NCBI GenBank assembly: GCA_019449555.1
Contig: JAGRPN010000157.1
Span: 1 to 44,270 of the forward strand
From: Ramlibacter sp.
GTDB taxonomy: Bacteria > Pseudomonadota > Gammaproteobacteria > Burkholderiales > Burkholderiaceae_C
Length of the DNA: 44,270 nt
Reading direction: 5' to 3'
Below the pieces are notes generated by a model that did not search any database, was not told the origin of the DNA, and saw nothing but the letters and a program-made list of their open reading frames with translations. Position numbers and translations under genes: made by a program. Positions within the stretch are counted from its first letter, which is position 1; the number at the start of each line of letters is the position of its first letter. Positions 1,533 to 31,656 of this stretch are shown here, piece after piece.

Positions 1533-1564
1533 CGTGTTCCTTGTTGTCCAGGCGCGGAAGGCGG

Positions 1565-3244: not shown

Positions 3245-3265
3245 GGCCCGCTCCATGGCGCCTGG

Positions 3266-3299
3266 AGACAAAGACAAAGGGGCGCCGGACTCCGGCGCC
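3266..3299 (-). terminator. Rho-independent terminator after puuD
   Basis: GGCGCCGG (3281-3288) and CCGGCGCC (3292-3299) form a perfect 8-bp stem with a 3-nt loop. On the minus strand the stem is followed by a T-rich run (CCTTTGTCTTTGTC). It lies 60-90 bases after the puuD stop and before the acyl-CoA synthetase start, so it should end the puuD transcript. Confidence 0.65.
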
Positions 3300-3356
3300 G
3301 AGGTTACCCTCGACGGGCGGTGCCGGGCTACTGGTGGATTCCCGTGAGACTTTGGG

Positions 3357-12272: not shown

Positions 12273-13190
12273 CTACCGCCGCCAGGGCGGCAGCGGCTTG
12301 AAGCGCGCCTGCAGGAAAGCCAGGAAGAGCTTGACGCGCGCCGACATGCCCGCGCGGCTGGCAACCAGCGCGACGGCGTCCGCATCGGGCAGGTTCCAGT
12401 CGGGCAGCAATCGCACCAGCCGGCCCGAGGCCAGGCTCTCGGCCACATCCCATTCCGAGCGCATGATCACGCCCTTGCCCTGGAGCGCCCACTGCCTGGC
12501 CACTTCGCCATCGTTGCAGCTCAGGATCGCCGGCACGCGCACGGCGACTTCGCTGCGCTTCTTGCGGAATTTCCACAGCGTGACGTCCTCGTCGTTCTCG
12601 CGCAGCACGATGCAGTCGTGCTGCGCCAGTTCCGCTGGTTCGCGCGGTGCCGGCCGGCGCGCGAGGTACTCGGGCGCGGCGCAGATGAAACGCGCATTCG
12701 GGGCGATCGGATAGACCACCATGCTGGAGTCGGGCAGGCTGCCGATGTGCACGATCAGGTCGAAGCGGTTCGCATCGGCCGCCGACACGACGTCGCTGAG
12801 CGTGAGCGACACCATCAACTTGGGGTACTGAGTGTGGAACTCCGCGATCGCCGGCGCCAGGTAATGCCGTCCGAACCCGAGCGGGCCCCCGACATGCAGC
12901 GTGCCGGCGACTTCGCCGGAGCGCTCGCGCAGCGTGTCGACCAGGTCATCGAGCTGCGACAACAGCGAGACCGCCCCGGCGTGGAACAGCTCGCCCTCCT
13001 CGGTGAGGCTGAAGCGCCGCGTCGTGCGATGGGCCAATTGCATGCCCAGGCGTCCCTCCAGCTGCCGCAACCGCTGCGACACGGCCGACGCCGTCACATC
13101 CAGGCGCCGCGCCGCTTCGGCCATCGAGCCACTTTCGATGATCGTGACGAAAAACCGCAGGTCGGTGATGTCGCGAGGCATGGGCTGCAT
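12273..13190 (-). CDS. LysR-family regulator 2
   Basis: This 305-residue LysR-type regulator has a helix-turn-helix in SMAEAARRLDVTASAVSQRL and a substrate-binding domain starting near VGGPLGFGRHYLAPA. It follows the ornithine-cyclodeaminase-like gene by 38 bp in the same direction and is followed by lysR1. It is therefore at the downstream end of the long catabolic operon and may sense one of its substrates. It differs clearly from lysR1 in sequence, so the two are not a recent duplication. Its target is not visible from the sequence. Confidence 0.86.
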   Translation of the reverse strand: MQPMPRDITDLRFFVTIIESGSMAEAARRLDVTASAVSQRLRQLEGRLGMQLAHRTTRRFSLTEEGELFHAGAVSLLSQLDDLVDTLRERSGEVAGTLHVGGPLGFGRHYLAPAIAEFHTQYPKLMVSLTLSDVVSAADANRFDLIVHIGSLPDSSMVVYPIAPNARFICAAPEYLARRPAPREPAELAQHDCIVLRENDEDVTLWKFRKKRSEVAVRVPAILSCNDGEVARQWALQGKGVIMRSEWDVAESLASGRLVRLLPDWNLPDADAVALVASRAGMSARVKLFLAFLQARFKPLPPWRR

Positions 13191-13228: not shown

Positions 13229-14212
13229 CTAATAGTCCACCACGCTGCAGCCGCCGCGCTGCCGCGCGAGGCGCACGGCCAGCTCGGCGACGACCAGGTC
13301 CTGCATGGCGACCCCCGTGCCGTCGAACAGCGTGATCTCGCTAGCGCTCCGGCGCCCCGGGCAGCGGCCGGCGACCACATCACCGATGGCGCCGCGGAAG
13401 CTCGACGCGTCGATCAGGCCGGCGTTGAAGGCGTGCTGGCATTCACCGATGCTGATGGCTTGCGCGCCCTCGTCCACGAAGATGGCGCAGGCAGCGACCA
13501 GCAGCGGGTCGAGCTCCTGCTTGCCCTTGGTGTCGGCGCCCATGGCGCTGATGTGCGTGCCCGGGCGCACCCAGGACTTCTCGACCAGCGGCTGCTGCGA
13601 GGGCGTGACGGTGATCAGGACGTCGGCGGACGCGGCCACCTGCTGGCGCTCGGCGGCGGCGAATTCCAGCCCGAGCTGCTCCACCGTGCGGCCGAACGCC
13701 GCGAGGTTGTCGGCGGACGGGTCCCACGCGTACACCTTGCGGATGGGCCGAACGGCCAGCGTGGCGCGCAACTGGAACTGCGACTGCACCCCGGCGCCGA
13801 TCATGCCCAGCACCCGGCTGTCGGGCCGGGACAGGTACTTGGTTGCGATGGCGCTGGCTGCGCCGGTGCGCACGCCGGTCAGGTAATTGGCGCTGACCAG
13901 CGCACATGCGCGGCCGGTCTGCGGATCGAACAGCAGGGTCGACGACTGGTGATTGCCCAGGCCGCGGCCCAGGTTGTGCGGCCAGTAGCCGCCGGCCTTG
14001 AGGCCGAGGATCGGCGCGGCGGTGTCGGCACCCGCCTTGACGCCGAACACCGCATCCTGGCAGCCCACCGGCTCGCGCACCACGGGGTAGTTGCGCGCTT
14101 CGCCTCGCGCCATGGCCCCGAACATCTTTTCGACCGCGTCGATCGCGTCGTCGAAGCCGACCAGTTCGCGCGCATCGCGCTCGGAAATGATGACCAGGGA
14201 ACCGTTCGTCAT
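13229..14212 (-). CDS. Ornithine cyclodeaminase/mu-crystallin family, iminosuccinate-reductase (BhcD)-like
   Basis: This 327-residue protein is in the ornithine cyclodeaminase/mu-crystallin family of NAD(P)-dependent imine reductases and deaminases. K72 in LKAGGYWP is the family lysine, NHQSSTLLFDP follows it, and the Rossmann motif is GMIGAGVQSQFQLRA. From memory these segments, and NYPVVREPVG near residue 41, look closest to BhcD, the iminosuccinate reductase of the beta-hydroxyaspartate cycle, which makes aspartate. The start at 14212 is seven bases after the preceding stop. The upstream neighbours are a DSD1-like dehydratase and, two genes back, a hydroxyaspartate-aldolase-like protein, which supports that reading. 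Ornithine or alanine chemistry is the main alternative. Confidence 0.82.
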   Translation of the reverse strand: MTNGSLVIISERDARELVGFDDAIDAVEKMFGAMARGEARNYPVVREPVGCQDAVFGVKAGADTAAPILGLKAGGYWPHNLGRGLGNHQSSTLLFDPQTGRACALVSANYLTGVRTGAASAIATKYLSRPDSRVLGMIGAGVQSQFQLRATLAVRPIRKVYAWDPSADNLAAFGRTVEQLGLEFAAAERQQVAASADVLITVTPSQQPLVEKSWVRPGTHISAMGADTKGKQELDPLLVAACAIFVDEGAQAISIGECQHAFNAGLIDASSFRGAIGDVVAGRCPGRRSASEITLFDGTGVAMQDLVVAELAVRLARQRGGCSVVDY

Positions 14213-14219
14213 GCCTGGC

Positions 14220-15353
14220 TCACCATCCGCCGAAGCGCGGCCATCTTGCGTCGACTTGCCCGCCGGCGCCCAGCACCTCGTAATGCCCGAACTGCGCGGC
14301 CGTGGAGCACGCGTGATTGGGCAGGATACGCACCTGCGTGCCCACCGGCAGGTGCGGCGCGCCGTCGCGCCTGCCGCTGCGATGCGCAACGATGCCGTGT
14401 TCCTGGTTCACACCCACCAGCACTAGGTCGTCCAGCGGCCTGCCCTGGAGGTCGCACACGACGCCGTAGCCCTGGTCCACCGCCTGGCCCGCGGTGCCGC
14501 GGTCGCGCGACATCGCCATCCAGCCGGCATCGAGCAAGGTCCAGCCCTTGTCGGGACGGTGTCCGATCACGGTGCCGAGCACGGACAATGCGATCTCGTC
14601 CAGCCGGCAGACGTTCAGGCCGGCCATGAACAGGTCGAAGAACACGAACACGCCGGCGCGCAGTTCGGTGACGCCGGACAGGTTCTCGGCGAACAGCGCG
14701 GTGGGCGTCGATCCCACGCTCACCACCGGCGACCCCAGGCCTTCGGCGCGCAGCCGCTGCGCCGCGAGGACAGCCGCGGCTCGCTCCTGCTCGGCCATCG
14801 CGCGGATTGCCCCGGGCGACGGGCAGTCGTACGAACTCCCCGCGTGCGTGAGCACGCCGTTCACCGGGATTGCGGCGCGCTCCAGGCAGCGGCCGATCTC
14901 GAGCAGCAGGCCGTCGTCGGGCTTGACGCCGGAGCGATGGCCATCCGAGTCGATCTCGATCAATGTGTCGAACCGCTCGCCGCGCGCCTTTGCGCGTTCG
15001 GCCAGCAGCCGCGCGGCTTCCAGGCTGTCCAGGATGATCGACAGCTTCACCCCCTGCGCCCGCAGCCTGGCGACGTGATCGAGTTTGTTGGGCGCGATGC
15101 ACACCGCATACAGGATGTCGGTGACGCCCTGGGCCGCGAAGTAGTCGGCCTCGAGCAGGGTGGACACCGTGATGGGCCCTTGCGGGCTGTCCATCAGGCG
15201 GCGGGACACGTCGATCGACTTGTTGGTCTTCACGTGCGGCCGGAAGGCGACGCCGAGCTTGCGCAATTGCGCGCGCATGCGCGCGATGTTGCGGTCCATC
15301 TGCGCCTCGTCGATCAGCAGCGCAGGCGTCTCCAGCTGTTGCAGGGTCCGCAT
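14220..15353 (-). CDS. DSD1-like fold-III PLP dehydratase (D-serine or D-threo-3-hydroxyaspartate)
   Basis: This 377-residue protein is in the alanine-racemase-like fold-type III PLP family. The PLP lysine is K42 (RPHVKTNK) and the metal site is H347-x-C349 (PNHACST). The His-x-Cys pair is the zinc site of eukaryote-type D-serine dehydratase; related aldolases carry His-x-Asp instead. A Delftia (Comamonadaceae) homologue is known as D-threo-3-hydroxyaspartate dehydratase. The product would be an imine: iminosuccinate from hydroxyaspartate, which the next gene could reduce to aspartate. The start at 15353 is one base after the stop of the upstream deacylase gene. D-serine, released by that deacylase, is an equally possible substrate. 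Confidence 0.83.
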   Translation of the reverse strand: MRTLQQLETPALLIDEAQMDRNIARMRAQLRKLGVAFRPHVKTNKSIDVSRRLMDSPQGPITVSTLLEADYFAAQGVTDILYAVCIAPNKLDHVARLRAQGVKLSIILDSLEAARLLAERAKARGERFDTLIEIDSDGHRSGVKPDDGLLLEIGRCLERAAIPVNGVLTHAGSSYDCPSPGAIRAMAEQERAAAVLAAQRLRAEGLGSPVVSVGSTPTALFAENLSGVTELRAGVFVFFDLFMAGLNVCRLDEIALSVLGTVIGHRPDKGWTLLDAGWMAMSRDRGTAGQAVDQGYGVVCDLQGRPLDDLVLVGVNQEHGIVAHRSGRRDGAPHLPVGTQVRILPNHACSTAAQFGHYEVLGAGGQVDARWPRFGGW

Positions 15354-15354
15354 C

Positions 15355-16824
15355 TCAGGCCCCCGCCTTTTGCGGCTCGCGGGCCAGCACACGGCCCGGC
15401 CGGGCGCCGGTCGACTTGCCGCCCTGCCACACGGGAGCGCCGTTGACGATCACGGTGTCGATGCCGCGCGCGGGCGCGATCGGCGACTCGTAGGTGGCGG
15501 CGGAATCCACCGTCTCGGCGTCGAACAATGTGAGGTCCGCATAGGCGCCTTCCTTGAGCACGCCGCGGTCCTTCAAGCCGAAGTTCTTCGCCGTCAGGCC
15601 TGTCATCTTGTAGATGGCCATTTCCAGCGGAAAGAGCCCCAGCAGCCGGCCGTAGTGCCCCAACACGCGCGGGAAGGTGCCCCACAGGCGCGGGTGCGGC
15701 GAAGCGTCGTGGGGCAGCCCGTCCGAGCCGATCATGACCTTGTCGTGCTTCAGGATGCGCTGCACGTCGGATTCGTCCAGCCTGAAGTAGATGCCGCCCG
15801 CCGGGCTCAGCCGCCGGATCGCCTCGTCTTGCCCGACGCCCATCTTCTTCGCGATCGCGTCCAGGTCCTGGCCGGCGTACTCGGGCAGCGCCCGGGACCA
15901 GCTGACGATCACGCGCGCGGAATTCGCCGCGCGGTCCGCCGACAGGATCGTCGAGCCGGCCGTGTACGGGTAGCAATCCATGCAGATCGGCTGGTTCGCC
16001 ATGTTCTTCTCGATCAGCGAGAGCGCCTCCTGGGAGCGGCCCTTGTTCGCCTCGCCCACCACCTTGAGGTGCGAAATCACGACCGGCACGCCAACCTCGC
16101 GGCCGATCCGGAAAGTCTCCTCCAGCGAATCGATCACCCGGTCCGCCTCGTCGCGCATGTGGGTGCAATACACGCCGTGGAACTCCTTGAGCGGACGGCA
16201 GGTCTCGATCACTTCCTCGGTCGGCGCCGCGACCGCGGGCTCGTAGAACAGCCCCGTGGACACACCGATCGCGCCGGCCTGCAGCGCCTCGCGCACCAAG
16301 GCGCGCATCCGCTCGATCTGCTCGGGCGAGGCCGGGCGCTCCAGGTCATCGAGCGTCGCCACGCGCAATGTCGTATGGCCCACCAGCAGCGCGCAGTTGG
16401 TCGCGGCGGGTTGCTCGCGCAATTTCGCGATGTACGAGGCAAAAGTGGGGAACGAGAACCAGCCGCCTTCCTCGTCCAGCAGGTTCAGCGGCGGCGTGAC
16501 CGGCTGCGGGATCGGGCGCGGCATGGGCGCGAGCGAAATGCCGCAGTTGCCGGCCACCACGGTCGTGATGCCCTGGCTGACCTTGGGCGCCATGTCGGGG
16601 CTGGACAGCATCAGGCGGTCGTCGTGCGTATGGGCGTCGATGAACCCCGGCGCCGCGATGCGGCCCTTCAGGTCGATCTCGACCTTGCCGCTGGAAGCCG
16701 CCAGGTCACCGATGCGCGCGATGCGATCGCCGCGGATTCCGATATCGCCGGCATAGCGCGGGGCGCTTGTGCCGTCCACGATGGTGGCGTTGCGAATGAG
16801 AAGGTCGAAGTTCTTGTCCTGCAT
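15355..16824 (-). CDS. N-acyl-D-amino-acid deacylase (amidohydrolase)
   Basis: This 489-residue zinc amidohydrolase removes the acyl group from N-acyl-D-amino acids. The metal motif H65-x-H67 is in DAHTHDD, and C94 in AGNCG is the cysteine ligand typical of D-aminoacylases. Later motifs are VISHLKV, which brings a third histidine, and IGSDGLPHDASPHPR, which carries the catalytic aspartate. The N-terminal ATIVDG and C-terminal APVWQGGKSTGARPGRVL form the usual beta-sandwich. It starts at 16824 and is followed almost without gap by the DSD1-like gene, so free D-amino acids or D-hydroxy amino acids are likely handed on. Co-occurrence with the peptide-type importer upstream suggests uptake of acylated amino acids. 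No signal peptide is seen. Confidence 0.92.
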   Translation of the reverse strand: MQDKNFDLLIRNATIVDGTSAPRYAGDIGIRGDRIARIGDLAASSGKVEIDLKGRIAAPGFIDAHTHDDRLMLSSPDMAPKVSQGITTVVAGNCGISLAPMPRPIPQPVTPPLNLLDEEGGWFSFPTFASYIAKLREQPAATNCALLVGHTTLRVATLDDLERPASPEQIERMRALVREALQAGAIGVSTGLFYEPAVAAPTEEVIETCRPLKEFHGVYCTHMRDEADRVIDSLEETFRIGREVGVPVVISHLKVVGEANKGRSQEALSLIEKNMANQPICMDCYPYTAGSTILSADRAANSARVIVSWSRALPEYAGQDLDAIAKKMGVGQDEAIRRLSPAGGIYFRLDESDVQRILKHDKVMIGSDGLPHDASPHPRLWGTFPRVLGHYGRLLGLFPLEMAIYKMTGLTAKNFGLKDRGVLKEGAYADLTLFDAETVDSAATYESPIAPARGIDTVIVNGAPVWQGGKSTGARPGRVLAREPQKAGA

Positions 16825-16875
16825 CGAAAAATCCTGGTTGAAAGGTTCTTGTCGGTTCTTCCGGGAGCCGGCCGG

Positions 16876-17991
16876 TCACAGCAACGCGCCGCGTGCAGCG
16901 ATCGGCCAGAGCGCTTCGACGCGGTCGCCGCGAAAGCAGACCAGGTCGTCGTAGAGGTTCACCGTCGGGTCACAGTGGCCCGGCACCAGCATCAGCACGT
17001 CGCCCAGCGAGACCGCCGCTGCATCGGTCGTGGCCAGGACGCCATGCTCGTCGGCGGCCTTGACGTAGCGCAGCTCGGGACGCTGCCACACGCGCGGCAT
17101 GCCGGAGTCGACGCTCGACGCTTTCAGGCCGGCATCCACCACGGCGCGTTCGGCGGTCGGTCGGCTCATGACGGCGGTGCGAACGAACAATGCGTGCTCG
17201 AACGCGATATCGCCGGCGCCCGCCCGGTTGTCGCCGTAGTCGCGGTCCATGAACACATACGAGCCCGCCTGGATTTCGTTGAAGATGCCGCTGTCGCGCT
17301 CGTGGACGAAGGTGCCGGTTCCGCCCCCCGTGATGCGCCCGACGGCGATGCCGCAATCGACGATTGCCTGCCGGCTCACCCGTGCGGCTTCGCTGGCCTG
17401 GGCGATGGCCATCATGCGCTCCTGCGCTGAGCGCAGGTGCTGGGCCGGGCCGTGGTAGCACTGCAGCCCCGCAAACCGCAGTCCCGCGCTGGACGCGATC
17501 TGCCGCGCGAGCTGGGCGGCGCCGGCGCCTGGCGCCACGCCGCAGCGATTGGCGCCGACGTCGACCTCGACATACACGTCCAGCGTCACGTCGCCAGCCT
17601 GGGCGGCGGCGGCGAGCGCCCGGACCTGCTGCGGGTCATCCACCAGCACACCGACACGCGAGCGCCGCGCGAGCGGCGCCAGGCGGCGCAATTTGGCCTC
17701 GCCCATCACCTGGTTGGTGATCAGGACGTCGCCGATGCCCGCGTCCACGAATACGGCCGCCTCGCTGACCTTCTGGCAGCAGATGCCCACGGCGCCGGCT
17801 GCGACCTGGCGCAGCGCGATCTCCGGGCATTTGTGGCTCTTGGCATGCGCACGCAGGCGCACGTTGCTGCCCTTCAGCGCATCCGCCATGCGCTGCAGGT
17901 TGCGTTCGAACGCGTCGAGGTCGAGCATCAGCGCGGGGGTATCGACCGCGCTCAGCCGGTCGCCGGGCTGCGCGGCTTTCCAGGGGCTCAT
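16876..17991 (-). CDS. D-threonine/3-hydroxyaspartate aldolase-like PLP enzyme (BhcC/DHAA-like)
   Basis: This 371-residue fold-type III PLP protein has the PLP lysine at K51 (RAHAKSHK) and the metal pair H339-x-D341 in PGHCDPTVN. His-x-Asp is the aldolase version of the site, unlike the His-x-Cys of the neighbouring dehydratase-like protein. Internal segments GICCQKVSEA, EIQAGSYVFMDRDYG and VDAGLKASSVDSG match, from memory, D-3-hydroxyaspartate aldolase of Paracoccus, the BhcC enzyme that joins glycine and glyoxylate. The start at 17991 follows the TctC gene stop by 11 bp. Glyoxylate is available from purine breakdown in the same window. D-threonine aldolase is the alternative, and direction in the cell is not known. 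Confidence 0.85.
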   Translation of the reverse strand: MSPWKAAQPGDRLSAVDTPALMLDLDAFERNLQRMADALKGSNVRLRAHAKSHKCPEIALRQVAAGAVGICCQKVSEAAVFVDAGIGDVLITNQVMGEAKLRRLAPLARRSRVGVLVDDPQQVRALAAAAQAGDVTLDVYVEVDVGANRCGVAPGAGAAQLARQIASSAGLRFAGLQCYHGPAQHLRSAQERMMAIAQASEAARVSRQAIVDCGIAVGRITGGGTGTFVHERDSGIFNEIQAGSYVFMDRDYGDNRAGAGDIAFEHALFVRTAVMSRPTAERAVVDAGLKASSVDSGMPRVWQRPELRYVKAADEHGVLATTDAAAVSLGDVLMLVPGHCDPTVNLYDDLVCFRGDRVEALWPIAARGALL

Positions 17992-18002: not shown

Positions 18003-18971
18003 TCAGTCGACTTTCGCGCCCGAGAACTTGACGATCTTGGCCCACTTCAGCGTCTCGCGCCGCGAGAGCTCGAGAAACTCCTCGGGCGTGCTGGGCGCCG
18101 TTTCCGCGCCGAGCAACCTGAAACGCTCGCGCACGGCGGGAGTGGCCAGCGCGGTGCGGATCTCGGTGTTCAGGCGCTTGACGATGTCCTTGGGCATGTT
18201 GGCCGGGCCGATGATGCCGCCCCAGGCCGTCACCTCGAAACCGGGCACCGATTCAGCGATCGTCGGCACGTCGGGATAGGTGGCCGAGCGCTGCGGCGAG
18301 GAAATGCCCAGCGCGCGCGCCTTGCCCGCCTGCACCAGCGGCCCGGACACCGGCGCGTTCACCATCATCAACTGGATGCCGCCGCCGATCAGGTCCGTCA
18401 CCGCCGAAGTGGCCGCACGGTACGGCACGTGCAGCATGTGCACCCCGGTCATCGCCTTGAACAGCTCGACGCCCAGATGCGCGGTCGTGCCGTTGCCGTC
18501 CGAAGCGAATGCCAATTTGCCCGGATTCTGTTTCGCATAGGAGATCAACTCGGGCACCGTTTTGACGGGCACGTTGTTGTTGACGATCATCAGGTTCGAC
18601 ACACGCAGCGCATTGGCGATGAGCGTCAGGTCCTTTTCCACGTCGTACGGCACGGTGGCCAGCAGCGACTTGTTGGTGGCCAGCGACACCACGTTGCCGT
18701 AGGCGAGCGTGTAACCGTCGGGGGCGGAGTGCACCAGATCCATCGTGCCGATCACGTAAGAGCCGCCCGGCTTGTTGTCGATCACGATCGACACGCCCAT
18801 CTGCTGCGACAGCTGCTGCGCCAGCGCGCGCATCAATGCGTCGGGTGCGCCGCCCGGTGCAGAAGGCACGATCAGGCGGATCGGCTTCTCCGGATACGCA
18901 GCGAAGCTCGGCAATGCGGCCGCAGCCAGCGCGGCCAGGGCCAATACGGGAAGAAGGAAACGTCTAAGCAT
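18003..18971 (-). CDS. Tripartite tricarboxylate (TctC/Bug) substrate-binding protein
   Basis: This 322-residue periplasmic receptor starts with a signal peptide of about 24 residues (FLLPVLALAALAAAALP, then FAAYPEKP) and the family segment IRLIVPSAPGGAPDA. The conserved NKPGGSYVIGT and VPYRAATSAVTDL segments are present. Bug proteins bind small carboxylates and feed TctAB membrane proteins, but no tctA or tctB lies nearby, as is common in Burkholderiales, which have hundreds of orphan receptors. The gene sits in the long minus-strand operon, 44 bp after the SDR gene. Its ligand is probably a dicarboxylate or amino-acid derivative used by the enzymes around it. Confidence 0.9.
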   Translation of the reverse strand: MLRRFLLPVLALAALAAAALPSFAAYPEKPIRLIVPSAPGGAPDALMRALAQQLSQQMGVSIVIDNKPGGSYVIGTMDLVHSAPDGYTLAYGNVVSLATNKSLLATVPYDVEKDLTLIANALRVSNLMIVNNNVPVKTVPELISYAKQNPGKLAFASDGNGTTAHLGVELFKAMTGVHMLHVPYRAATSAVTDLIGGGIQLMMVNAPVSGPLVQAGKARALGISSPQRSATYPDVPTIAESVPGFEVTAWGGIIGPANMPKDIVKRLNTEIRTALATPAVRERFRLLGAETAPSTPEEFLELSRRETLKWAKIVKFSGAKVD

Positions 18972-19015: not shown

Positions 19016-19930
19016 TCACCGGGTTGCGGGCCCGAGCCGGCCGCCGGGCGCCGACTGGCCCGTGAGCAGCCGGCGGACCGCGTCGGCATAGACGACTTCC
19101 GAGTCGTCCTGCGGTGCGTAGCCGAGCACGGCGCGCGCCGATTCGAGCGACCAGAACGCGCGGGTGTTGTCCGAGATGCCGTAGGCGATCACCCACGGCA
19201 CGCTGCCCGGCGCCAATGCCAGCGGGGCCTCCACCGCGCAGCGAAACAGCGCAGCGCAGTCGCGGTCGCTCAGGTAGGCGCCGAGCGCGCGCTTGAAGCT
19301 GGCGAGGCCCGTTGGCCGACCCAGTCCCGACGGCGCGGGCTTCGCCCCGGACTCGTAGCGCGAGACGTCGATCGGGTAGGGCGAGCCGATGCGCAGCAGC
19401 ACGAACTCCATGCAGCGCCCGAACGTCCCGCAGGCATAGGGATGGGCCAGCAATTCATAGCTTGCCTTGGACCAGCCGTAGAAGTTGTCGGCCAGCGGCA
19501 GGTCGGTGGGATAGACGGTCTCCTTTCGCCGCTGATGAACCTGCGCATGTTCGTACCAGTCGGCAGCGTGGTTGGAGGAAACCGCGACCACCCGCCGCAC
19601 GCCGGCATCGAACGCGCAGCGGTACACGCGCTGGGCCATCCGCACGTTGTCGAGCTCGGCCTGGAAGCGCTCGATTTGGGGCGGGTACTGGCTGTAGACA
19701 TCGCGTTCGGCCGAAGGGATGTAGGCGCTGTGCACGACCACGTCGACGCCCTGGAACAAGCGCGCCAGCTCGTCGTCACCCGCGTCCAGCAGGCTCAGCT
19801 CGCGAAATGACGCGCCCGCCGTCAGCCAGGCCGGCTTGCGCACGTCGGCCAGGCGCAGCTCGTGGTGCTCGAGTCCCGGCATGGCCAGCGTAGCCATGTG
19901 ACCCGCCGCACCGGTCAGCAGCAATATCAC
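19016..19930 (-). CDS. NAD-dependent epimerase/dehydratase, uronate-dehydrogenase-like SDR
   Basis: This 304-residue extended short-chain dehydrogenase has the nucleotide motif LTGAAGHMATL, the active-site serines in AVSSNHAADWY and YGWSK with the catalytic tyrosine and lysine. The SSNH segment, LLRIGSPYP and the C-terminal SDNTRAFWSLESARAVLGY resemble uronate dehydrogenase, which oxidises sugar acids. The GTG at 19930 is chosen because it overlaps the upstream stop as GTGA. The protein is cytoplasmic. Its neighbours are an unrecognised 415-residue protein and a TctC receptor. Whether it acts on a sugar acid or another hydroxy compound in this operon is open. Confidence 0.83.
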   Translation of the reverse strand: MILLLTGAAGHMATLAMPGLEHHELRLADVRKPAWLTAGASFRELSLLDAGDDELARLFQGVDVVVHSAYIPSAERDVYSQYPPQIERFQAELDNVRMAQRVYRCAFDAGVRRVVAVSSNHAADWYEHAQVHQRRKETVYPTDLPLADNFYGWSKASYELLAHPYACGTFGRCMEFVLLRIGSPYPIDVSRYESGAKPAPSGLGRPTGLASFKRALGAYLSDRDCAALFRCAVEAPLALAPGSVPWVIAYGISDNTRAFWSLESARAVLGYAPQDDSEVVYADAVRRLLTGQSAPGGRLGPATR

Positions 19931-21174
19931 GACAGTTCCTCCTGCAACGCGGCGACGCGCCTTCCATGGCCCAGGGCACGCTGGATCCAGTCGAGGCGGT
20001 TCAACGGCATCATCGCGTAATGATAGAAACCGATGCTGCGCGCCGGCGAAGCCAGCACCGCCGCGACCTTGCCGTTGAAATTGTCCTCGTCGTGGCAGTC
20101 CGGCGCCAGCGGGCGCAGCATCACCGACAACGCGGCGCCGGCGCCCAGCGCGCGCGTGTAGCTGGCCAGCATGGCATCGAGCCGCTCCCGGGTGTCGACG
20201 TAGCCCAGTGCGCAGATCTCGTCGGACGCGGCGGCCACCGCGTTCAGGTCGATGCCCAGTTTGCGCGACGACACCGTCACTTCGTCGTCCGCGCCGGTGC
20301 CCAGCATGACGTGCGACATCGCGCCGGCATGGTCGATGAAATTGAGCTTGATGCCCGACGGCGACAACGCATCGCGCACTTCGGCCACCAGGCTGGACAC
20401 CACTTGCATGCGTGCGTCGATGTACGCCGTGAGCTCCGGCTGCATGCTCGGAGCGAGCAGCGCACCGGCGTGGCCGCGCGCCACTTCCCCGCGCCACACC
20501 GGCTCCAGGGCCTGGCGCACCGCGGCCGCGAGGGCGCCCGGATCGGCGCCCGCCAGCAGGCCGGCCCCGCGGCAGTGCCGGCAAAAGCACAGCGACAGGA
20601 GCGTGCGCGCCTCCGGCGGCAGATGGATCAGGTAGCGCTCGTGATGTTCGCCGTGTTCGAACGGGCGGTAATGCAGGCTCTCGGCGAGTAGCCGCCGGAT
20701 CGGGTAGCGCGCGAGGTCGCCGGCCAGCTCGCGGCAGTAGGCGCGCACGCGCGGATTCGCGGGACAAAGATCGCTGAGGTAAGCATCTCCGTACGCATTG
20801 TGGGTGGCGCAGTCGGGATGCGCCGTGGCGAGTTGCGAGTTGTGCAGGAAGATGGTCCAGGCATCGACACCCAGGCCGCGCCGCCCGGCCCGCTCGCACA
20901 ATTGCGAGAGCACGTCGGCGCCATCGGCCGCGGCGGCCGGGCGCGGCTGCAGGCCGCTGGTATAGCGAGCCGCATCGGGCACGAACCACGCCACGTCGCC
21001 TTCATGGCGATGGACATGGAATTTCGGGTTGTGCGGGAACACGTCGCGCGCATCGTGGTACGTCGCCGCCAGCGACACGGCGCCGACACCGGCACGCTCC
21101 TGCAGGTTGTCGAGCACGGCTTCATAGCCCTCGCCCAGCAGGTCGGTCCCGAATACGCAGAGTGAAGAGTCCAT
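19927..21174 (-). CDS. Unrecognised 415-residue protein (possible TIM-barrel)
   Basis: I do not recognise this protein. It has 415 residues, no signal peptide and no membrane segment. The ATG at 21174 is the first plausible start after the preceding gene, and the stop overlaps the SDR start as GTGA. The N-terminal ARDVFPHNPKFHVHRHEGD has many charged and aromatic residues. A later CFCRHCRG (CxxC type) may bind metal, and LNFIDHAG and PLAPDC are further conserved-looking stretches. The alternation of strands and helices and acidic loops (GVDAWTIF, RRLLAESLHYRP) suggests a TIM barrel, as in glycosidases or isomerases. It lies between a 2-hydroxyacid dehydrogenase and a uronate-dehydrogenase-like gene, so it may act on a sugar-like compound, but this is a guess. 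Confidence 0.75.
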   Translation of the reverse strand: MDSSLCVFGTDLLGEGYEAVLDNLQERAGVGAVSLAATYHDARDVFPHNPKFHVHRHEGDVAWFVPDAARYTSGLQPRPAAAADGADVLSQLCERAGRRGLGVDAWTIFLHNSQLATAHPDCATHNAYGDAYLSDLCPANPRVRAYCRELAGDLARYPIRRLLAESLHYRPFEHGEHHERYLIHLPPEARTLLSLCFCRHCRGAGLLAGADPGALAAAVRQALEPVWRGEVARGHAGALLAPSMQPELTAYIDARMQVVSSLVAEVRDALSPSGIKLNFIDHAGAMSHVMLGTGADDEVTVSSRKLGIDLNAVAAASDEICALGYVDTRERLDAMLASYTRALGAGAALSVMLRPLAPDCHDEDNFNGKVAAVLASPARSIGFYHYAMMPLNRLDWIQRALGHGRRVAALQEELS

Positions 21175-23100: not shown

Positions 23101-24036
23101 CTAGAGCGCCGTTTCGGGTCGGGCGGCGCCGCTGTGGCGCGGATCGAGGACATCGCGGATCGCGTCGCCCAGCACGTTGAAAGCGAGCATCAGCGCCACC
23201 AGCGCGACGATCGGCCAGACCGTGAGCCAGGGCGCGATCGTGATGAAGTCGCGCGCCTTGGACAGCATGCTGCCCCAGTCAGCTTGCGGCGGGCTCACGC
23301 CCAGGCCGAGGAAGCTGAGCGACGCATAGGCGAGCTGCGCCGTCGACATGCTGAGGGCGGCGAGCACGATGACCGATGGCAATACGTTGGGCAGCATGTG
23401 ACGCAGCAGGATCGACGGCGTGCCGACCCCGGCGAGTCGCGCCGCGTCCAGGTACTCGCTGGTCCTGACGCCCAGTGCGCTGGCGCGGGCGATGCGCGCG
23501 AACCGCGGCGTGTAGACGATCGCGATGGCCAACACCGCATTGAACAGCCCCGGGCCGAGCACGGCCACGATGATGATCGCCAGCAACAGGGTCGGAAAGG
23601 CGAACAGCACGTCCTGGCTGCGGTTGAGGATCGTGTCGATCTTGCCGCCGAAATAGCCGGCGACGACGCCGATGGCAACGCCCGCCACGGCGGCGACGGC
23701 CACCGACAGGAATGCCACGATCACGGCGATGCGCGAGCCGTCGATCACGCGGCTGAGGGTGTCGCGGCCGAGTTCGTCAGTGCCGAAGAAGTGCTGCGCG
23801 CTCGGGCCGGACAAGGTGCTGGCGAGTTCGCCGACGTTCGGGTCGTAGGGCACGAGCCAGCGCCCGACGAAGGCCAGCACGATGAACAGGCCGAGCACGC
23901 CGACGCCGAACGCACCACCCCGGTGGCGCAGCAATTCCGCGGCGAAACCTTCGCGCCGCGGCCTCGCCACGGCAGCGGCGGCGGGCAGCGGCTCGAACGC
24001 GCCGGCTTCGGCTTCGGTGGGCAGGTCGGGGGTCAT
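23101..24036 (-). CDS. Peptide-type ABC transporter permease (DppC-like)
   Basis: This 311-residue inner-membrane permease has the OppC/DppC pattern. An N-terminal cytoplasmic tail precedes the first membrane helix (GGAFGVGVLGLFIVLAFVG), followed by the periplasmic HFFGTDELGRDTLSRVI and about five more helices. The EAA-like loop EYLDAARLAGVGTPSILLRH contacts the ATPases. The start at 24036 overlaps the dppB-like stop as ATGA. It is the last of the importer genes before the dehydrogenases, so the imported substrate is probably processed by the downstream enzymes. An acylated amino acid or small peptide would fit, but this is inferred. Confidence 0.93.
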   Translation of the reverse strand: MTPDLPTEAEAGAFEPLPAAAAVARPRREGFAAELLRHRGGAFGVGVLGLFIVLAFVGRWLVPYDPNVGELASTLSGPSAQHFFGTDELGRDTLSRVIDGSRIAVIVAFLSVAVAAVAGVAIGVVAGYFGGKIDTILNRSQDVLFAFPTLLLAIIIVAVLGPGLFNAVLAIAIVYTPRFARIARASALGVRTSEYLDAARLAGVGTPSILLRHMLPNVLPSVIVLAALSMSTAQLAYASLSFLGLGVSPPQADWGSMLSKARDFITIAPWLTVWPIVALVALMLAFNVLGDAIRDVLDPRHSGAARPETAL

Positions 24037-24980
24037 CGGGGTCTCTGGCGCGGGTCGAGCACCGGATACAGCAGATCGATCAGCGCGTTGATCAGCACGA
24101 AGCTCACTGCGAACACCAGGGTCGTGGCGGTGACCATGGGATAGTCGCGGGTGGAAATCGCCTCGAGCATGCCGCGCCCCAGCCCCGGCAGGCTGAAGAT
24201 CTGTTCGACCACGATCAGGCCGCCCAGCATCACCCCGAACTGGAAGCCGATGAAGGTGATGATCGGCGGCAGCGCCTGGCGCAGCGCGTGCAGGTAGTGG
24301 ATGCGCGGCAGGCGCACGCCGGCGGCACGCGCGGTAACGATGCACGGATCGTGCAGCACTTCGAGCATGGCGCTGCGCGTCATCTGCATCGTCATCGCGG
24401 CGATGGGCAGCGTGATCGTCAGCAGCGGCATGATCATCGAACGGATGTGCGCGGCCGGGTCCTGCGACCACCCGGTGAACGACATGCGAAACAGGTCGGG
24501 CGCGATGCGCGAGCCCACCAGCAGCACCAAAATGCCGACCACGAAGGTCGGGACCGAGAAGGCGATCAGCAACTGCGAGCGGATCAGAACGTCGAGCCGG
24601 CGGTTCGCGTGCACCGCCGCCAGGATGCCGGCGGGCAGGCCGAGCAGCGTTGAAAACACGAGGCAGAGCAGCGCCAGCTCCACCGACACGGGGATCTGCT
24701 GCGCGAGGTCGGATGTCACGCTGCGCCCCGTGATCGGCGAGGTGCCGAAATCCCCTTGCAGCGCGTGGCCGAGCCAGCGCGCATATTGCACGGGCAGCGG
24801 CTGGTCCAGGCCGAGGTTGCGGCGCACTTCCTCGAACTGCTGCGCGGTCGCGCCCTCCTGCCCGACAATCACGCTGGTCAGGTCGCCGGGGATCAGCGAA
24901 CCCAATCCGAACACCAGCACGGACACCGCGAACAGCACGGCAAGCATCGCGCCCAGCCGTGCGAACAGCAACTTCAGCAT
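24033..24980 (-). CDS. Peptide-type ABC transporter permease (DppB-like)
   Basis: This 315-residue inner-membrane permease has six predicted membrane helices, starting with LGAMLAVLFAVSVLVFGLG. The DppB-type segment SLPGLGRGMLEAI precedes the C-terminal helix. It overlaps the upstream ATPase by seven bases and the downstream permease by four, so the importer genes are tightly coupled. It would pair with the DppC-like protein to form the channel. Confidence 0.93.
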   Translation of the reverse strand: MLKLLFARLGAMLAVLFAVSVLVFGLGSLIPGDLTSVIVGQEGATAQQFEEVRRNLGLDQPLPVQYARWLGHALQGDFGTSPITGRSVTSDLAQQIPVSVELALLCLVFSTLLGLPAGILAAVHANRRLDVLIRSQLLIAFSVPTFVVGILVLLVGSRIAPDLFRMSFTGWSQDPAAHIRSMIMPLLTITLPIAAMTMQMTRSAMLEVLHDPCIVTARAAGVRLPRIHYLHALRQALPPIITFIGFQFGVMLGGLIVVEQIFSLPGLGRGMLEAISTRDYPMVTATTLVFAVSFVLINALIDLLYPVLDPRQRPR

Positions 24981-26014
24981 GCGAGCTCCTCCGGCTGCAG
25001 CGCCGCCGCGGATTGCGCCGCGCGAGCAAGGCGTTCGGCCGCGTCCGGGAAATGGCAGGCGACGAGATGCCCGCCGCCCGTATCCTGCAATGTCGGCGCG
25101 GTGGCCGCGCAGCGCGCGTCGGCCAGCGGGCAGCGCGTGCGGAACCGGCAGCCGGACGGCGGATTCATCGGGCTGGGAACGTCGCCGCGCAGCACCAGCC
25201 CCGAGCGGGCGCGCTCCAGCACCGGGTCGGGCAGCAGCGTGGCATTGCGCAGCGCGATCGAATACGGATGGCGCGGACGCTGCGCGAACGTGCGCGCCGC
25301 CGCGGTCTCGACAATCTCGCCCAGGTACATCACGACCACGCGGTGGCTGATGGCCTGCACGGCCGCGAGGTCATGGCTGATGAACACGTAGGCGGTGCCC
25401 AACTTGTCCTGCAGCTGCACCAGCAGGTTCAGGATCTGCGCCTGCAGCGAGATGTCGAGCGACGCGACCGCCTCATCGTGCACCACCAGCGCCGGGTTGG
25501 CGATGAGCGCGCGCGCGATCGAGGCGCGCTGCTGCTGGCCGCCCGACATCTGGTGCGGCATCCGGGCCGCCATCTTGGGATTCAGGCCGACCAAAGTGAG
25601 CATGCGCGCGACTTCGTCGTCCGTGTCGCGGCTGCCGCGCGCCCACAGCGGTTCGGCGACGCTCGCGCCGACCGTGCGGCGCGGATTCATGGAGCCGGCC
25701 GGATTCTGGAACACCATCTGGAAGTTGCGGCGCCGCTCGCGGCCGGCGGCGCCGCTTTCCCAAATGTCGCCGCCGCCGACGCGGATGGTTCCGGCATCGG
25801 GTGCCAGCAATCCGACGATCAGCCGCGCGAGCGTCGATTTGCCGCAGCCGGATTCGCCCACGACCCCCAGCGTTTCGCCGGCGGCGAGAGTGAGGGAGAC
25901 GCCGTCGACGGCGCGCAGCGTGCCGGCAGGCCGTCCGCCGCCCGCGCGGATGTGGAAGTGCTTGACGACGCCTTGCACTTCCAGCAGCGGCCGGCCCGGC
26001 TCAGAGGACGACAT
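24974..26014 (-). CDS. Peptide-type ABC transporter ATPase (DppF-like)
   Basis: This 346-residue cytoplasmic ATPase has Walker A GESGCGKST, the signature MSGGQQQRASIARAL, the Walker B region NPALVVHDEAVASLD and the C-terminal domain found in oligopeptide-type ATPases (RCPLADARC). The cysteine-rich tail is the usual iron-sulfur-like or structural site of this subfamily. The aspartate before the Walker B glutamate has the sequence HDEAV where DEP(T/V) is usual; the P is replaced by A, a small deviation. Its stop region overlaps the permease start. Confidence 0.92.
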   Translation of the reverse strand: MSSSEPGRPLLEVQGVVKHFHIRAGGGRPAGTLRAVDGVSLTLAAGETLGVVGESGCGKSTLARLIVGLLAPDAGTIRVGGGDIWESGAAGRERRRNFQMVFQNPAGSMNPRRTVGASVAEPLWARGSRDTDDEVARMLTLVGLNPKMAARMPHQMSGGQQQRASIARALIANPALVVHDEAVASLDISLQAQILNLLVQLQDKLGTAYVFISHDLAAVQAISHRVVVMYLGEIVETAAARTFAQRPRHPYSIALRNATLLPDPVLERARSGLVLRGDVPSPMNPPSGCRFRTRCPLADARCAATAPTLQDTGGGHLVACHFPDAAERLARAAQSAAALQPEELAC

Positions 26015-27014
26015 CGACGGCCTCCCCGCGCGCGGGCGTTTCGGCCAGCGAAGTCCCTTCCTGCGCGACCCAGCAGCGTGTGGAGTGGCCGGGCGCGATC
26101 GCCAGCAGGTCGGGATGGGCCTGGCAGCGCTGCTGGGCGAACTCGCAGCGCTCGCGAAAGCGGCAGCCGCCGGGCAGGGCGCTCATGTCCGGCGGCGCGC
26201 CCGGAAGGGTCGGCAACTGGCCGCGCGGCTGGTCGACGCGCGGGATGGAGCGCAACAGGCCGCGCGTGTACGGGTGGCGCGAATCGGCGAAGAGTTCGCG
26301 CACCGGCGCCTCCTCGACGATCTCGCCGGCATACATCACGGCGACCCGGTCGCACATCCTGGCGATCACGCCCATGTTGTGCGTGATCAGCAGCAGTGCG
26401 GTCCCGTGGTCGTGCGTCAGCTTCTTCATGAGCTGCAGCACCTGCGCCTGGATGGTCACGTCCAGCGCGGTGGTGGGCTCGTCCGCGATCAGCAGTTGCG
26501 GCTCGTTCAGCATGCCCATCGCAATCACGACCCGCTGGCGCATGCCGCCGGACATCTGGTGCGGAAAGGACGCGGCTTGCCGCTGGGGGTCGGGCATGCC
26601 GACGGCCGCCAGCGCCTGGTGCACCGCGGCCGCGCCCGCGTCGCCGCGGCCATGCGCCTTCAGCACCTCGCCCATCTGCCAGCCGATGCTGAACACGGGA
26701 TTGAGCGCCGTCATCGGGTTCTGGAACACGAGCCCGGCCTGCGTGCCGCGCCGCTGGCGCATCCCTTCCTCGTCGAGCGAGAGGAGGTTCACTCCGTTGA
26801 GCTCCACGCGGCCGGCCTCGATGCGCCCCGGCGGCGCGACCAGCCGCAGCACCGACATCGCGGTGACGCTCTTGCCCGAACCGGATTCGCCGACCAGGCC
26901 CAGCGTCTCGCCCCGGCCCACGGTGAACGACACGTCATCGACGGCCGTCACCGTGCCATAGCCGGTGCGAAAGCGTGTCGTGAGACCGCTGACCTGGAGG
27001 ACCGGAGCGGTCAC
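26001..27014 (-). CDS. Peptide-type ABC transporter ATPase (DppD-like)
   Basis: This 337-residue cytoplasmic ATPase has Walker A GESGSGKSV, the signature MSGGMRQRVVIAMG and Walker B LLIADEPTTALD. The C-terminal segment GCRFRERCEFAQQRC is the usual tail of the family. The GTG start at 27014 overlaps the stop of the binding-protein gene as GTGA, which supports translational coupling. The gene ends inside the start of the DppF-like ATPase. Together they form the usual heterodimer of a DppBCDF importer. Confidence 0.93.
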   Translation of the reverse strand: MTAPVLQVSGLTTRFRTGYGTVTAVDDVSFTVGRGETLGLVGESGSGKSVTAMSVLRLVAPPGRIEAGRVELNGVNLLSLDEEGMRQRRGTQAGLVFQNPMTALNPVFSIGWQMGEVLKAHGRGDAGAAAVHQALAAVGMPDPQRQAASFPHQMSGGMRQRVVIAMGMLNEPQLLIADEPTTALDVTIQAQVLQLMKKLTHDHGTALLLITHNMGVIARMCDRVAVMYAGEIVEEAPVRELFADSRHPYTRGLLRSIPRVDQPRGQLPTLPGAPPDMSALPGGCRFRERCEFAQQRCQAHPDLLAIAPGHSTRCWVAQEGTSLAETPARGEAVDVVL

Positions 27015-28528
27015 TTCAGCGTGACGCCGGCGAGGAAAGTGCGCGACAGGGTCGGGTCGGGCTTGGCCGACTTCACCTTGCCGCTGTAGGCGACCCAGGC
27101 GTGGCGCGCCGCGATCGTGATGTCCGGGAACACGAGGTCGTCTTCCATGACGGCGACTTTCGCGAGCTGCGAGGCGTAGTCGTCCGCTGAGCCGCCCTGG
27201 GCCTTCGCGATCAAGGCATCGAGTTCCGGCGGGTTCGGGCCCTGGCGTCCCGGACGCGGCATCAGGTAGAACAGCGGGTCGGCCTGGAAGGCGTATTCGT
27301 TGTCCATGATCTCGTAGTCGGCCTTGTTCTGCTTGTCCAGCCACACCGCGTTCTGGTTGGCCTGGATCGTGACGCGAATATCCGCCTGGGCCAGCTGCGT
27401 CTTGAGCAGTTCGGCGAAGCGGTCCAGGTAGGTGGACCAGCCGGCCAGGTGGTTCAGCGTGATGTCGATGCCCTTCGGATAGCCGGCCTTGGCCAGCAGC
27501 GCCTTGGCCTGCGCCACGTCGTACTTGTGATACTTGAGGGAGTCCATCTTGGGCGCCCAGGTGTAGGACGGCGGCAGCTGCGCGCTCGGCACGGCCTCGC
27601 CGAGGAAGGCACCCTGCACCATCGCCGGCCGGTTGATCGCCAGCGAGATCGCGCGGCGCACGTCGACGTTGTTGAACGGCGCCTTGTTGGTCGCGATGTT
27701 CAGGCGGATCGTGTTGGTGGAAGGCACCTGCACCACCGCGATCGAAGGATCGCCCTTGAGCTGCAATTTGCCCTCGGCGCTGGGGAACATCAGGTCGATC
27801 TGGCCGGACTTCAGCGCGGCGATCTGGGCCGATTGCTCGGGCATGTAGCGGATCGTCAAGTCGGAGACTTTCGCGGCCGCTTCCTTGTTCCAATGAGCAT
27901 CATTGCGCTTGAGGACCAGCTGCTGGTTCGGCGTGTACGACACCATCTTGAACGGGCCCGTGCCCATCATCTCGCGCTTGGGGTCGTGCGTCTGCGCCCA
28001 TTTCTGGCTCAGGATCGCCGAGCCCACCACGAACGGGCTGCCCAGGTTCAGCAGGAAGCCGGCGTCGGGCTGCTTCAACTTGAAGCGCACGCGGCGGTCG
28101 TCCACCTTGGTCACGGAGTCGAGCAGCTTGAAGCGGTCCTTGGCGTAGGGCAGGCCCTTCTCGCTCAAACGCTGGAACGAGAACACCACATCGTCCGGCG
28201 ACACCGGTGTGCCGTCCGAGAATTTGACGCCCTCGCGCAGCGTGAAGTCGTAGGTGGTCTGCGCAGCGTCGACCGTCCACTGGGTCGCCAGCACCGGCAG
28301 GATCTTGCCGGAAACGTCGGCCCGCACCAGCCCTTCATAGACGAGCTGCCACATGTACCAGGTGCGGATCTGCGAGGACTGGGTCGGATCGAAAGTCTGC
28401 GGCACGACGTCTTCCGCGACGACCAGCATGCCGGTTTTCGCGCCGCCATCCTGCTGCGCCGCGCTGTATGAGGACGCGAGCAGGCCCATGGCCACGAGGC
28501 CGGCGATCCGGAGAAATTGAAAGCTCAT
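27011..28528 (-). CDS. Peptide-type ABC transporter substrate-binding protein (family 5)
   Basis: This 505-residue periplasmic receptor is of the DppA/OppA (SBP_bac_5) family. It has a signal peptide of about 23 residues (LRIAGLVAMGLLASSYSAA) followed by QQDGG. Family landmarks are FDPTQSSQIRTWYMW, REGVKFSDGTPVSPDDVVF and MMGTGPFKMVSYTP. The ATG at 28528 is supported by AGGAA eight bases before it. The gene is first in a minus-strand run of five importer genes and faces the gcl gene across 307 bp. The ligand cannot be read directly; downstream enzymes suggest N-acyl-D-amino acids, short peptides or a modified amino acid. Confidence 0.93.
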   Translation of the reverse strand: MSFQFLRIAGLVAMGLLASSYSAAQQDGGAKTGMLVVAEDVVPQTFDPTQSSQIRTWYMWQLVYEGLVRADVSGKILPVLATQWTVDAAQTTYDFTLREGVKFSDGTPVSPDDVVFSFQRLSEKGLPYAKDRFKLLDSVTKVDDRRVRFKLKQPDAGFLLNLGSPFVVGSAILSQKWAQTHDPKREMMGTGPFKMVSYTPNQQLVLKRNDAHWNKEAAAKVSDLTIRYMPEQSAQIAALKSGQIDLMFPSAEGKLQLKGDPSIAVVQVPSTNTIRLNIATNKAPFNNVDVRRAISLAINRPAMVQGAFLGEAVPSAQLPPSYTWAPKMDSLKYHKYDVAQAKALLAKAGYPKGIDITLNHLAGWSTYLDRFAELLKTQLAQADIRVTIQANQNAVWLDKQNKADYEIMDNEYAFQADPLFYLMPRPGRQGPNPPELDALIAKAQGGSADDYASQLAKVAVMEDDLVFPDITIAARHAWVAYSGKVKSAKPDPTLSRTFLAGVTLK

Positions 28529-28835
28529 CTGGATTCCTGTTTGAAGAACAAAAGCGCCGCCACGCGGCAAGCCTGGACTGCGAGTGCTGGAAGTTAAAGC
28601 AATGCATTCAAAACACAAACCAGGTAACGCTACATTCATCATTCAGCTGTTCTTACGAATCGCACTCGGATCCGCGCCCGGGGCCGGCGACCTCTCGAGC
28701 CCGCGTCCCGACTGGCTCATCCGTGCGCTCATTCCTACGCGGAATAGGTTTTATGGCCCGCCGCCCCCTTCTGCCGCCGGCGCTGGCTCCCTACATTCGA
28801 TGCCATACCGCATCACTCTCTCTTAGGAACACGCG
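28529..28835. promoter_or_regulatory. Divergent promoter region between the ABC operon and gcl
   Basis: The 307-bp intergenic region has no gene. Its left half, with the AT-rich AAGCAATGCATTCAAAAC, is likely the promoter of the ABC operon (minus strand). The right half holds the LysR-type box at 28731-28745 and the gcl ribosome-binding site (AGGAAC, 8-13 bases before the ATG). No other structured element was seen. Confidence 0.6.
28731..28745. promoter_or_regulatory. LysR-type inverted repeat upstream of gcl
   Basis: ATTCC-TACGC-GGAAT is a perfect 5-bp inverted repeat with 5-nt spacing and the T-N11-A pattern. It is followed by AGG and lies 90 bp upstream of the gcl ATG, a normal distance for a LysR activator site. 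The core equals the box before lysR1 at 12248. Confidence 0.6.
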
Positions 28836-30626
<1,791 letters not shown>

Positions 30627-30629
30627 AAG

Positions 30630-30765
30630 CTTGACCGATTCGGGCCGAGCCTTTAACCGTTTGGGCTGAGCCTGTCGAAGCCCCTCGAAGCCACCCGTTC
30701 GGGCTGAGCCTGTCGAAGCCTTCTCACACGCGAAGACCCTTCGACAAGCTCAGGGCGAACGGCGG
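30630..30765 (+). repeat. REP-like repeat cluster between gcl and hyi
   Basis: The 24-mer family TTCGGGCTGAGCCTG-TCGAAGCC (split here at a hyphen) occurs as a clear copy at about 30697-30720, a slightly changed one at about 30660-30681, and a degenerate one at about 30638-30652. An inverted copy, CTTCGACAAGCTCAGGGCGAA, lies at about 30739-30759 (hyphen-free run is one base longer than a single arm needs). Opposed copies can fold into a stem between the two genes. This repeat family is common in many Proteobacteria. Confidence 0.75.
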
Positions 30766-30795
30766 CGCAGCACCAACCGCCCAGGAGAAAACCCC

Positions 30796-31632: not shown

Positions 31633-31656
31633 CCAATTAGATAAAGGATGGACCCA

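Follow-up and report, generated by a model that had tools for sequence, protein, structure and literature searches.

What route is served by an operon in which a DSD1-type dehydratase stands beside a reductase resembling BhcD, the iminosuccinate reductase of the beta-hydroxyaspartate cycle (bhcABCD)? The question is raised by a 44,270-nucleotide stretch of Ramlibacter sp. DNA (GenBank assembly GCA_019449555.1, contig JAGRPN010000157.1), hereafter the window, in which an initial annotation, made from the letters alone, had read three genes between positions 13229 and 17991 as a variant beta-hydroxyaspartate route from glyoxylate and glycine to aspartate. The three proteins are present on the minus strand as claimed (reductase, 327 amino acids; dehydratase, 377; aldolase, 371), and the set is extended here by a gene in the same interval that had been overlooked, encoding a D-aminoacylase. 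The interval is thus made up of four co-directional genes, in transcription order those for the aldolase, the D-aminoacylase, the dehydratase and the reductase, with gaps of 51, 1 and 7 bases; the dehydratase ATG lies 1 base past the deacylase stop and the reductase ATG 7 bases past the dehydratase stop. That a fold-III dehydratase takes the place of BhcB beside a BhcD-type reductase is well supported. As to function, the reading preferred here, with a probability of roughly 0.47, is that the operon would constitute a catabolic module for D-beta-hydroxyaspartate, probably imported in N-acylated form.

Conserved pairing of dehydratase and reductase

Family assignments were made with Pfam, NCBIfam and PDB sequence searches. 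Relatives of the reductase (labelled P0003) were searched in a genome collection holding one genome per species (84,980 species), and the best 80 of 219 confirmed relatives were combined with the window, a Ciceribacter plasmid and an Aminobacter bhc plasmid to form the locus set, which therefore retains only close relatives of one protein and in which the counts depend on contig ends and identity thresholds. Loci carrying a P0003-clade reductase comprise 23 beta loci (Ramlibacter, Rhodoferax, Polaromonas, Variovorax, Hydrogenophaga and other Burkholderiales) and 25 alpha loci (Mesorhizobium, Devosia, Rhodobacterales and others). Trees were inferred with quick IQ-TREE runs and SH-aLRT support.

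A DSD1-type dehydratase is encoded near the reductase in 46 of these 48 loci (beta 23/23, alpha 23/25), and of the two alpha loci lacking it, one is a contig of 3,031 bases and the other breaks off ahead of the position expected for the dehydratase gene. BhcA, BhcB and BhcC were found near none of the 48 reductases, and in the window itself BhcA and BhcB have no match by tblastn, as the initial annotation had stated. The canonical bhc loci (n=33) show the reverse, with no DSD1-type dehydratase and with BhcC in 33, BhcB in 29 and BhcA in 25. The dehydratase also accompanies the reductase in two extra loci, L098 and L114, and over the 50 loci the two genes share one operon in 24, are arranged tail to tail, at most 50 bases apart, in 7 and lie 5-9 kb apart in 17, no dehydratase being seen in 2. 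In L114 (Kordiimonadaceae, 8731-10957) the dehydratase gene directly precedes a reductase that falls, on long branches, on the side of canonical BhcD; this locus is a hybrid of the two arrangements in its own right. Since a DSD1-type dehydratase occurs at E<=1e-60 anywhere in just 44 of 300 genomes of the order (own genome counted), a background figure for the beta order only, its adjacency in all the beta loci is not due to chance. The reductase is rare as well: at E 1e-60 the order sample (300 genomes) yielded it once and the family sample (250 genomes) twice, the own genome counted in each.

The dehydratase belongs to the DSD1/D-threo-3-hydroxyaspartate dehydratase family by its two domains, PF01168 (Ala_racemase_N) and PF14031 (D-ser_dehydrat), both above cut-off, its pyridoxal phosphate (PLP) lysine and its His-x-Cys pair. 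The best solved relative is the D-threo-3-hydroxyaspartate dehydratase of Delftia (3wqc; E 6.4e-127, 56% identity), of which the equivalents of K43 (the PLP lysine), H351 and C353 are kept, His-x-Cys reading NHAC, and with which the stretches HAGSSY, GWMAMSRDRGT and NQEHG are identical. In the dehydratase tree the beta-linked enzymes form one clade (support 100) and the alpha-linked enzymes, with L098, another (100), the Delftia enzyme being placed among dehydratases unlinked to the reductase. The partner dehydratases stem from two separate lineages, and as the reductases form one clade, the dehydratase partner was either recruited twice or exchanged once.

The reductase reaches 415.7 bits against the BhcD model NF045643 (cut-off 500), the next family scoring 221.4; its closest solved relative is the iminosuccinate reductase 6rqa (E 2.7e-97), and it is 52% identical to an annotated BhcD. 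Assignment as an ornithine cyclodeaminase, alanine dehydrogenase or EutC was rejected, these families reaching at most 221.4 bits and the motif comparison likewise speaking against it; the grouping with ornithine or alanine enzymes that would have spoken against the earlier proposal was not seen, and the clade adjoins BhcD. The motifs KAGGYWPHN and NHQS are common to this reductase and canonical BhcD. With fixed positions defined as those held by at least 95% of the rows in the reductase alignment, the P0003 clade (48 rows) and canonical BhcD (32 rows) share 63 fixed positions at which their residue is not that of the majority in seven other rows of the ornithine cyclodeaminase (OCD)/mu-crystallin family. 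These take in most of the two motifs, and the two groups differ at just 10 fixed positions. In the tree the P0003 clade and canonical BhcD are separated with moderate support (90 and 83). The beta rows fall within the alpha ones, and several long branches were flagged, L098 and L114 foremost. Taken together, sequence comparison suggests an enzyme that works like BhcD yet falls outside the BhcD equivalog, in a clade of its own.

The exchange of BhcB for a fold-III dehydratase, as the initial annotation had suggested, is therefore well supported by a conserved pairing with a BhcD-like reductase, its reversal in the canonical loci and the involvement of two dehydratase lineages. BhcB and EutB are fold-II enzymes. 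The pairing is not described in the PMC titles and abstract openings that were searched, which by itself does not prove novelty.

Deacylase, aldolase and the nature of the substrate

The D-aminoacylase, of the subtype V amidohydrolases, is related over its whole length to 1m7j (E 4.8e-177, residues 5-482) and is present in 22 of the 23 beta loci, the sole miss (L058) being a cut contig. The side-chain pocket of AfDam is reported to consist of Phe191, Met254, Leu298 and Met346 (PMC12017989); the corresponding residues are Phe, Val, Ala and Arg here, although the Leu298 column falls in a variable loop and is not relied on. The arginine that replaces Met346, Arg348, is found in 21 of 22 cluster rows (one is unreadable, N) and in 1 of 29 outside relatives, these being the 29 best of 68 non-self deacylase matches listed. 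A pocket arginine is most naturally read as suiting an anionic side chain. In the Rhodoferax locus L059 a second, 74% identical deacylase copy with an aldolase gene beside it (953-3500) lies upstream of the deacylase that belongs to the operon.

Where the deacylase is missing, in the alpha loci, an M81-family (MlrC-like) peptidase, a putative amide-bond enzyme, is found in 19 of 25, and also in L098. The dehydratase and the reductase are the constant pair and the amide-cleaving partner varies, a D-aminoacylase in the beta and an M81 peptidase in the alpha loci. This pattern fits the release and use of hydroxyaspartate better than the assimilation of glyoxylate.

For the aldolase the best solved relatives are the D-threonine aldolases 7dib (E 3.2e-114, 52%) and 4v15 (51%), ahead of BhcC 6qkb (46%). 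AxDTA residues K59, H193, H347 and D349 are all conserved, His-x-Asp reading GHCD, and the metal site and the His193 base recur in all 18 aligned rows from the 20 beta loci that have the gene. Alignment with solved relatives thus bears out both metal pairs of the initial annotation, His-x-Cys in the dehydratase and His-x-Asp in the aldolase. The beta aldolases form one clade (99) and the 34 BhcC rows another (99), the relation between both being left unresolved by the tree. Identification as a true BhcC was rejected, the protein scoring 417.5 bits against a cut-off of 690 (NF045642) and lying outside the BhcC clade. As the gene occurs in 20 of 23 beta loci and the misses (L052, L058, L082) fall on short or cut contigs, from which absence cannot be concluded, the aldolase belongs to the set within the Comamonadaceae. 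No His-x-Asp aldolase was found in any of the 25 alpha loci within the stretches examined (up to 10 kb either side, several contigs being shorter); in 6 of these loci a second enzyme of the His-x-Cys kind is encoded instead. L059 and L111 have the aldolase at a greater distance, in the latter 10 kb from the reductase, so that a more distant aldolase in the alpha genomes is possible. The function of D-threonine aldolase has been called largely unknown (PMC4401734).

These relationships would also accommodate general scavenging of D-amino acids, in which N-acyl-D-serine or N-acyl-D-threonine would be deacylated and then degraded by the dehydratase and the aldolase, with the reductase acting on some other imine. 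The D-serine dehydratase 3anu is among the relatives of the dehydratase, D-threonine aldolases are close relatives of the aldolase, and D-serine and D-threonine are also substrates of the fold-III enzyme OngC (PMC9537276). The retention of BhcD motifs in a reductase that would be unneeded if the imine simply hydrolyses, and an arginine pocket that suits an anion, make this explanation decidedly improbable.

Direction of the route and fate of glyoxylate

Stereochemistry bears on the direction. The Delftia dehydratase is reported to degrade D-threo- and L-erythro-hydroxyaspartate, D-erythro being an inhibitor (PMC8071972), and the intermediate of the beta-hydroxyaspartate cycle is given as D-erythro [2R,3S], with both erythro- and threo-hydroxyaspartate measured in plants carrying the cycle (Fig. 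3 legend, PMC8166194). A BhcC-like product could therefore not feed a Delftia-like dehydratase directly, except via the minor threo isomer. The two sources conflict in their labels, L-erythro being (2S,3S) in PMC8071972 and D-erythro [2R,3S] in PMC8166194 implying L-erythro (2S,3R), and isomer names rather than stereodescriptors are used here for this reason.

In the condensing route of the initial annotation, the aldolase would join glyoxylate and glycine, the DSD1-type enzyme would dehydrate the product, the BhcD-like enzyme would form aspartate and an aminotransferase encoded elsewhere would regenerate glycine. The regular occurrence of the aldolase in the beta operons makes such a conversion possible in the Comamonadaceae, and D-threonine aldolases are just moderately selective at the beta carbon (PMC4401734), which, with threo-hydroxyaspartate measured in cycle plants, means that some D-threo isomer could form and be drained. 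The aminotransferase could be sought in the BhcA-like protein of the own genome (96% complete), where the search for an aspartate-glyoxylate aminotransferase returned only this distant relative (43%, 429.6 bits, cut-off 650). As the main role, however, the route is less well supported and we consider it unlikely, since the alpha loci keep the dehydratase and the reductase with no aldolase in the stretches examined, the aldolase lies outside the BhcC clade, BhcA is absent from all 48 loci, the isomer of the cycle inhibits the Delftia enzyme and the deacylase is left unexplained.

The initial annotation had also taken gcl as a supplier of glyoxylate. The gcl, hyi and glxR genes (28836-32559, plus strand), all above curated cut-offs, encode glyoxylate carboligase, hydroxypyruvate isomerase and tartronate semialdehyde reductase, a glycerate pathway that consumes glyoxylate and would compete with a condensing aldolase for it. 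No Gcl was found beside the operon relatives in the 22 other beta loci, the link being local to this window. The best BhcB match of the own genome is a fragment that fits the threo-3-hydroxy-L-aspartate ammonia-lyase model better than BhcB (L131, contig C138, 21789-22502, near the contig end; 433.7 bits, cut-off 452 for the ammonia-lyase), which suggests that this genome may treat several hydroxyaspartate isomers.

In the preferred catabolic reading, a Bug-type receptor would bind the acid, and the D-aminoacylase, judged by its pocket arginine, would deacylate an N-acyl-D-amino acid whose side chain is acidic. The DSD1-type Zn/PLP enzyme would then dehydrate D-threo-beta-hydroxyaspartate to an enamine/iminosuccinate, a reaction known for the Delftia relative, and the BhcD-like enzyme, to judge from its substrate-site motifs, would use NAD(P)H to convert the labile iminosuccinate into L-aspartate before ammonia is lost, so that the nitrogen and all four carbons would be kept. 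The aldolase would cleave beta-hydroxyaspartate of the other configuration, or in excess, to glycine and glyoxylate, which the products of the adjoining gcl, hyi and glxR on the other strand could use. Dehydration and reduction would form the conserved heart, deacylation and aldol cleavage the Comamonadaceae version.

Several points weigh against this reading. Every substrate and the direction of flux are deduced from what was directly observed, namely the families, the motifs, a gene association that is kept across loci and the descent of the dehydratases from two lineages. No natural source of N-acyl-beta-hydroxyaspartate was identified. The alpha dehydratases compared have SKDRST for SRDRGT and YQEHG for NQEHG and may use another substrate. 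The cluster deacylases form one clade (100), so the gain of the pocket arginine amounts to one event, and one outside deacylase of the 29, L145, carries the arginine too. Five of the seven OCD control rows are one distant family and the two EutC-like rows share part of the reductase motif. An aldolase as regular as that of the beta loci is not required by a purely degradative route, and N-acetylglucosaminate catabolism likewise combines a D-aminoacylase with a fold-III PLP enzyme, in the pair OngB/OngC (PMC9537276).

If the preferred reading is true, it would provide a physiological role for DSD1-type hydroxyaspartate dehydratases and for a D-threonine aldolase, a non-homologous replacement in a pathway used for plant engineering, and an enzyme able to rescue the threo isomer measured in plants with the beta-hydroxyaspartate cycle (PMC8166194), and would suggest that Comamonadaceae and Alphaproteobacteria draw on a pool of D-hydroxyaspartate conjugates that has gone unrecognised.

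Neighbouring genes and comparison with known systems

Table 1. Operon genes and their neighbours in the window
Feature	Position	Strand	Basis
LysR regulator, directly downstream of the reductase gene	12273..13190	-	best match TtdR model, below cut-off
BhcD-like imine (iminosuccinate) reductase, OCD/mu-crystallin family (P0003)	13229..14212	-	NF045643, 6rqa, motifs, tree
DSD1-type Zn/PLP fold-III dehydratase, D-threo-3-hydroxyaspartate dehydratase-like	14220..15353	-	ATG at 15353; 3wqc
N-acyl-D-amino acid deacylase (D-aminoacylase), Arg348 in side-chain pocket	15355..16824	-	1m7j
D-threonine aldolase-family beta-hydroxy-D-amino acid aldolase, His-x-Asp	16876..17991	-	7dib, 4v15, 6qkb
Bug/TctC periplasmic solute receptor, precedes the aldolase gene	18003..18971	-	PF03401, 218.9 bits
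Uronate dehydrogenase-like NAD-dependent enzyme, optional associate, start codon not settled	19016..19927	-	weak 6mfh/3ay3 matches; Azf-like far below cut-off
Glycoside-hydrolase-like TIM barrel (family f17), optional associate	19927..21174	-	predicted fold
Two D-2-hydroxyacid dehydrogenases, optional associates	21186-22151; 22151-23098	-	PF02826; NCBIfam
Peptide-type ABC transporter (permeases, ATPases, solute-binding protein family 5)	23101..28642	-	PF00528, PF00496; permease at 24033 and solute-binding protein at 27011 profile-scanned, other genes placed by reading gene order

Relatives of the Bug receptor and of the LysR regulator, at 60% or more, are conserved with the operon in 19 and 17 of the 23 beta loci, respectively. 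The genes farther upstream, for the ABC transporter, the hydroxyacid dehydrogenases, the uronate-dehydrogenase-like enzyme and the glycoside-hydrolase-like protein, may take part in the same pathway. Several accompany the operon elsewhere in a different order (L051, L062, L065, L111), and none was seen near it in the Variovorax loci L063, L064 and L068. The glycoside-hydrolase-like protein, whose family was delimited by blastp with its reading frame, has no Pfam, NCBIfam or PDB sequence match and is found with the operon in beta and alpha genomes; it is predicted to form a TIM barrel like the PgaB C-terminal domain and Cwp19. Its occurrence in 9 of 25 alpha loci suggests that the imported compound may carry a sugar part. 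The uronate-dehydrogenase-like gene is present in 6 of 23 beta and 21 of 25 alpha loci.

Such neighbours would suit catabolism of amino-sugar acids, in which the deacylase would deacetylate an N-acetyl-2-amino sugar acid, the DSD1-type enzyme would dehydrate and deaminate it, and the glycoside-hydrolase-like, uronate-dehydrogenase-like and hydroxyacid-dehydrogenase proteins would act upstream. The model is the oxidative chitin pathway, in which the D-aminoacylase homologue OngB, a deacetylase, is followed by the fold-III PLP enzyme OngC (PMC9537276). The abundance of uronate-dehydrogenase-like genes in the alpha loci agrees with it, as does the fold predicted for f17, resembling PgaB and GH42 glycosidases. 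The specificity residues differ, however, Ser292, Gln298 and Gly348 of OngB being Thr, Ala and Arg here (the 298 column lying in the variable loop), and sugar-type genes are near just 5 or 6 of the 23 beta loci. The Ong pathway has RidA and 2-keto-3-deoxygluconate (KDG) kinase, neither of which is among the assigned operon genes, no search having been aimed at them; no reductase partner is reported for it in the parts of the source consulted, and the BhcD-like reductase would be without a role. This explanation is improbable in our judgement.

The Delftia sp. HT23 dehydratase shares the PLP lysine and the His/Cys metal ligands with the enzyme of the window and differs in its setting, a near-identical copy of its gene in a family member (L033, 97%) having no BhcD-like match in the 18 kb examined. 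In hydroxyectoine catabolism the eutABC genes are proposed to remove the hydroxyl from hydroxy-N-acetyldiaminobutyrate (hydroxy-ADABA) and hydroxydiaminobutyrate (hydroxy-DABA) (PMC13188858), and EutC-like rows share part of the reductase motif; P0003 differs from EutC in scoring 204 bits for EutC and 416 for BhcD. With the beta-hydroxyaspartate cycle the operon shares a BhcD-type last step, an aldolase of the same superfamily and, putatively, the iminosuccinate intermediate. It differs from that cycle in its fold-III DSD1-type dehydratase for BhcB, the absence of BhcA, an aldolase outside the BhcC clade, the D-aminoacylase in the operon and, probably, the diastereomer used and a degradative direction. 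On a reading whose odds are slightly short of even, the dehydratase and the imine reductase may form a couple parallel to BhcB/BhcD and EutB/EutC, with a fold-III partner drawn from two or three DSD1 lineages, that converts D-threo-beta-hydroxyaspartate to L-aspartate; such a couple would represent a mirror route that consumes the isomer unused by the known cycle.

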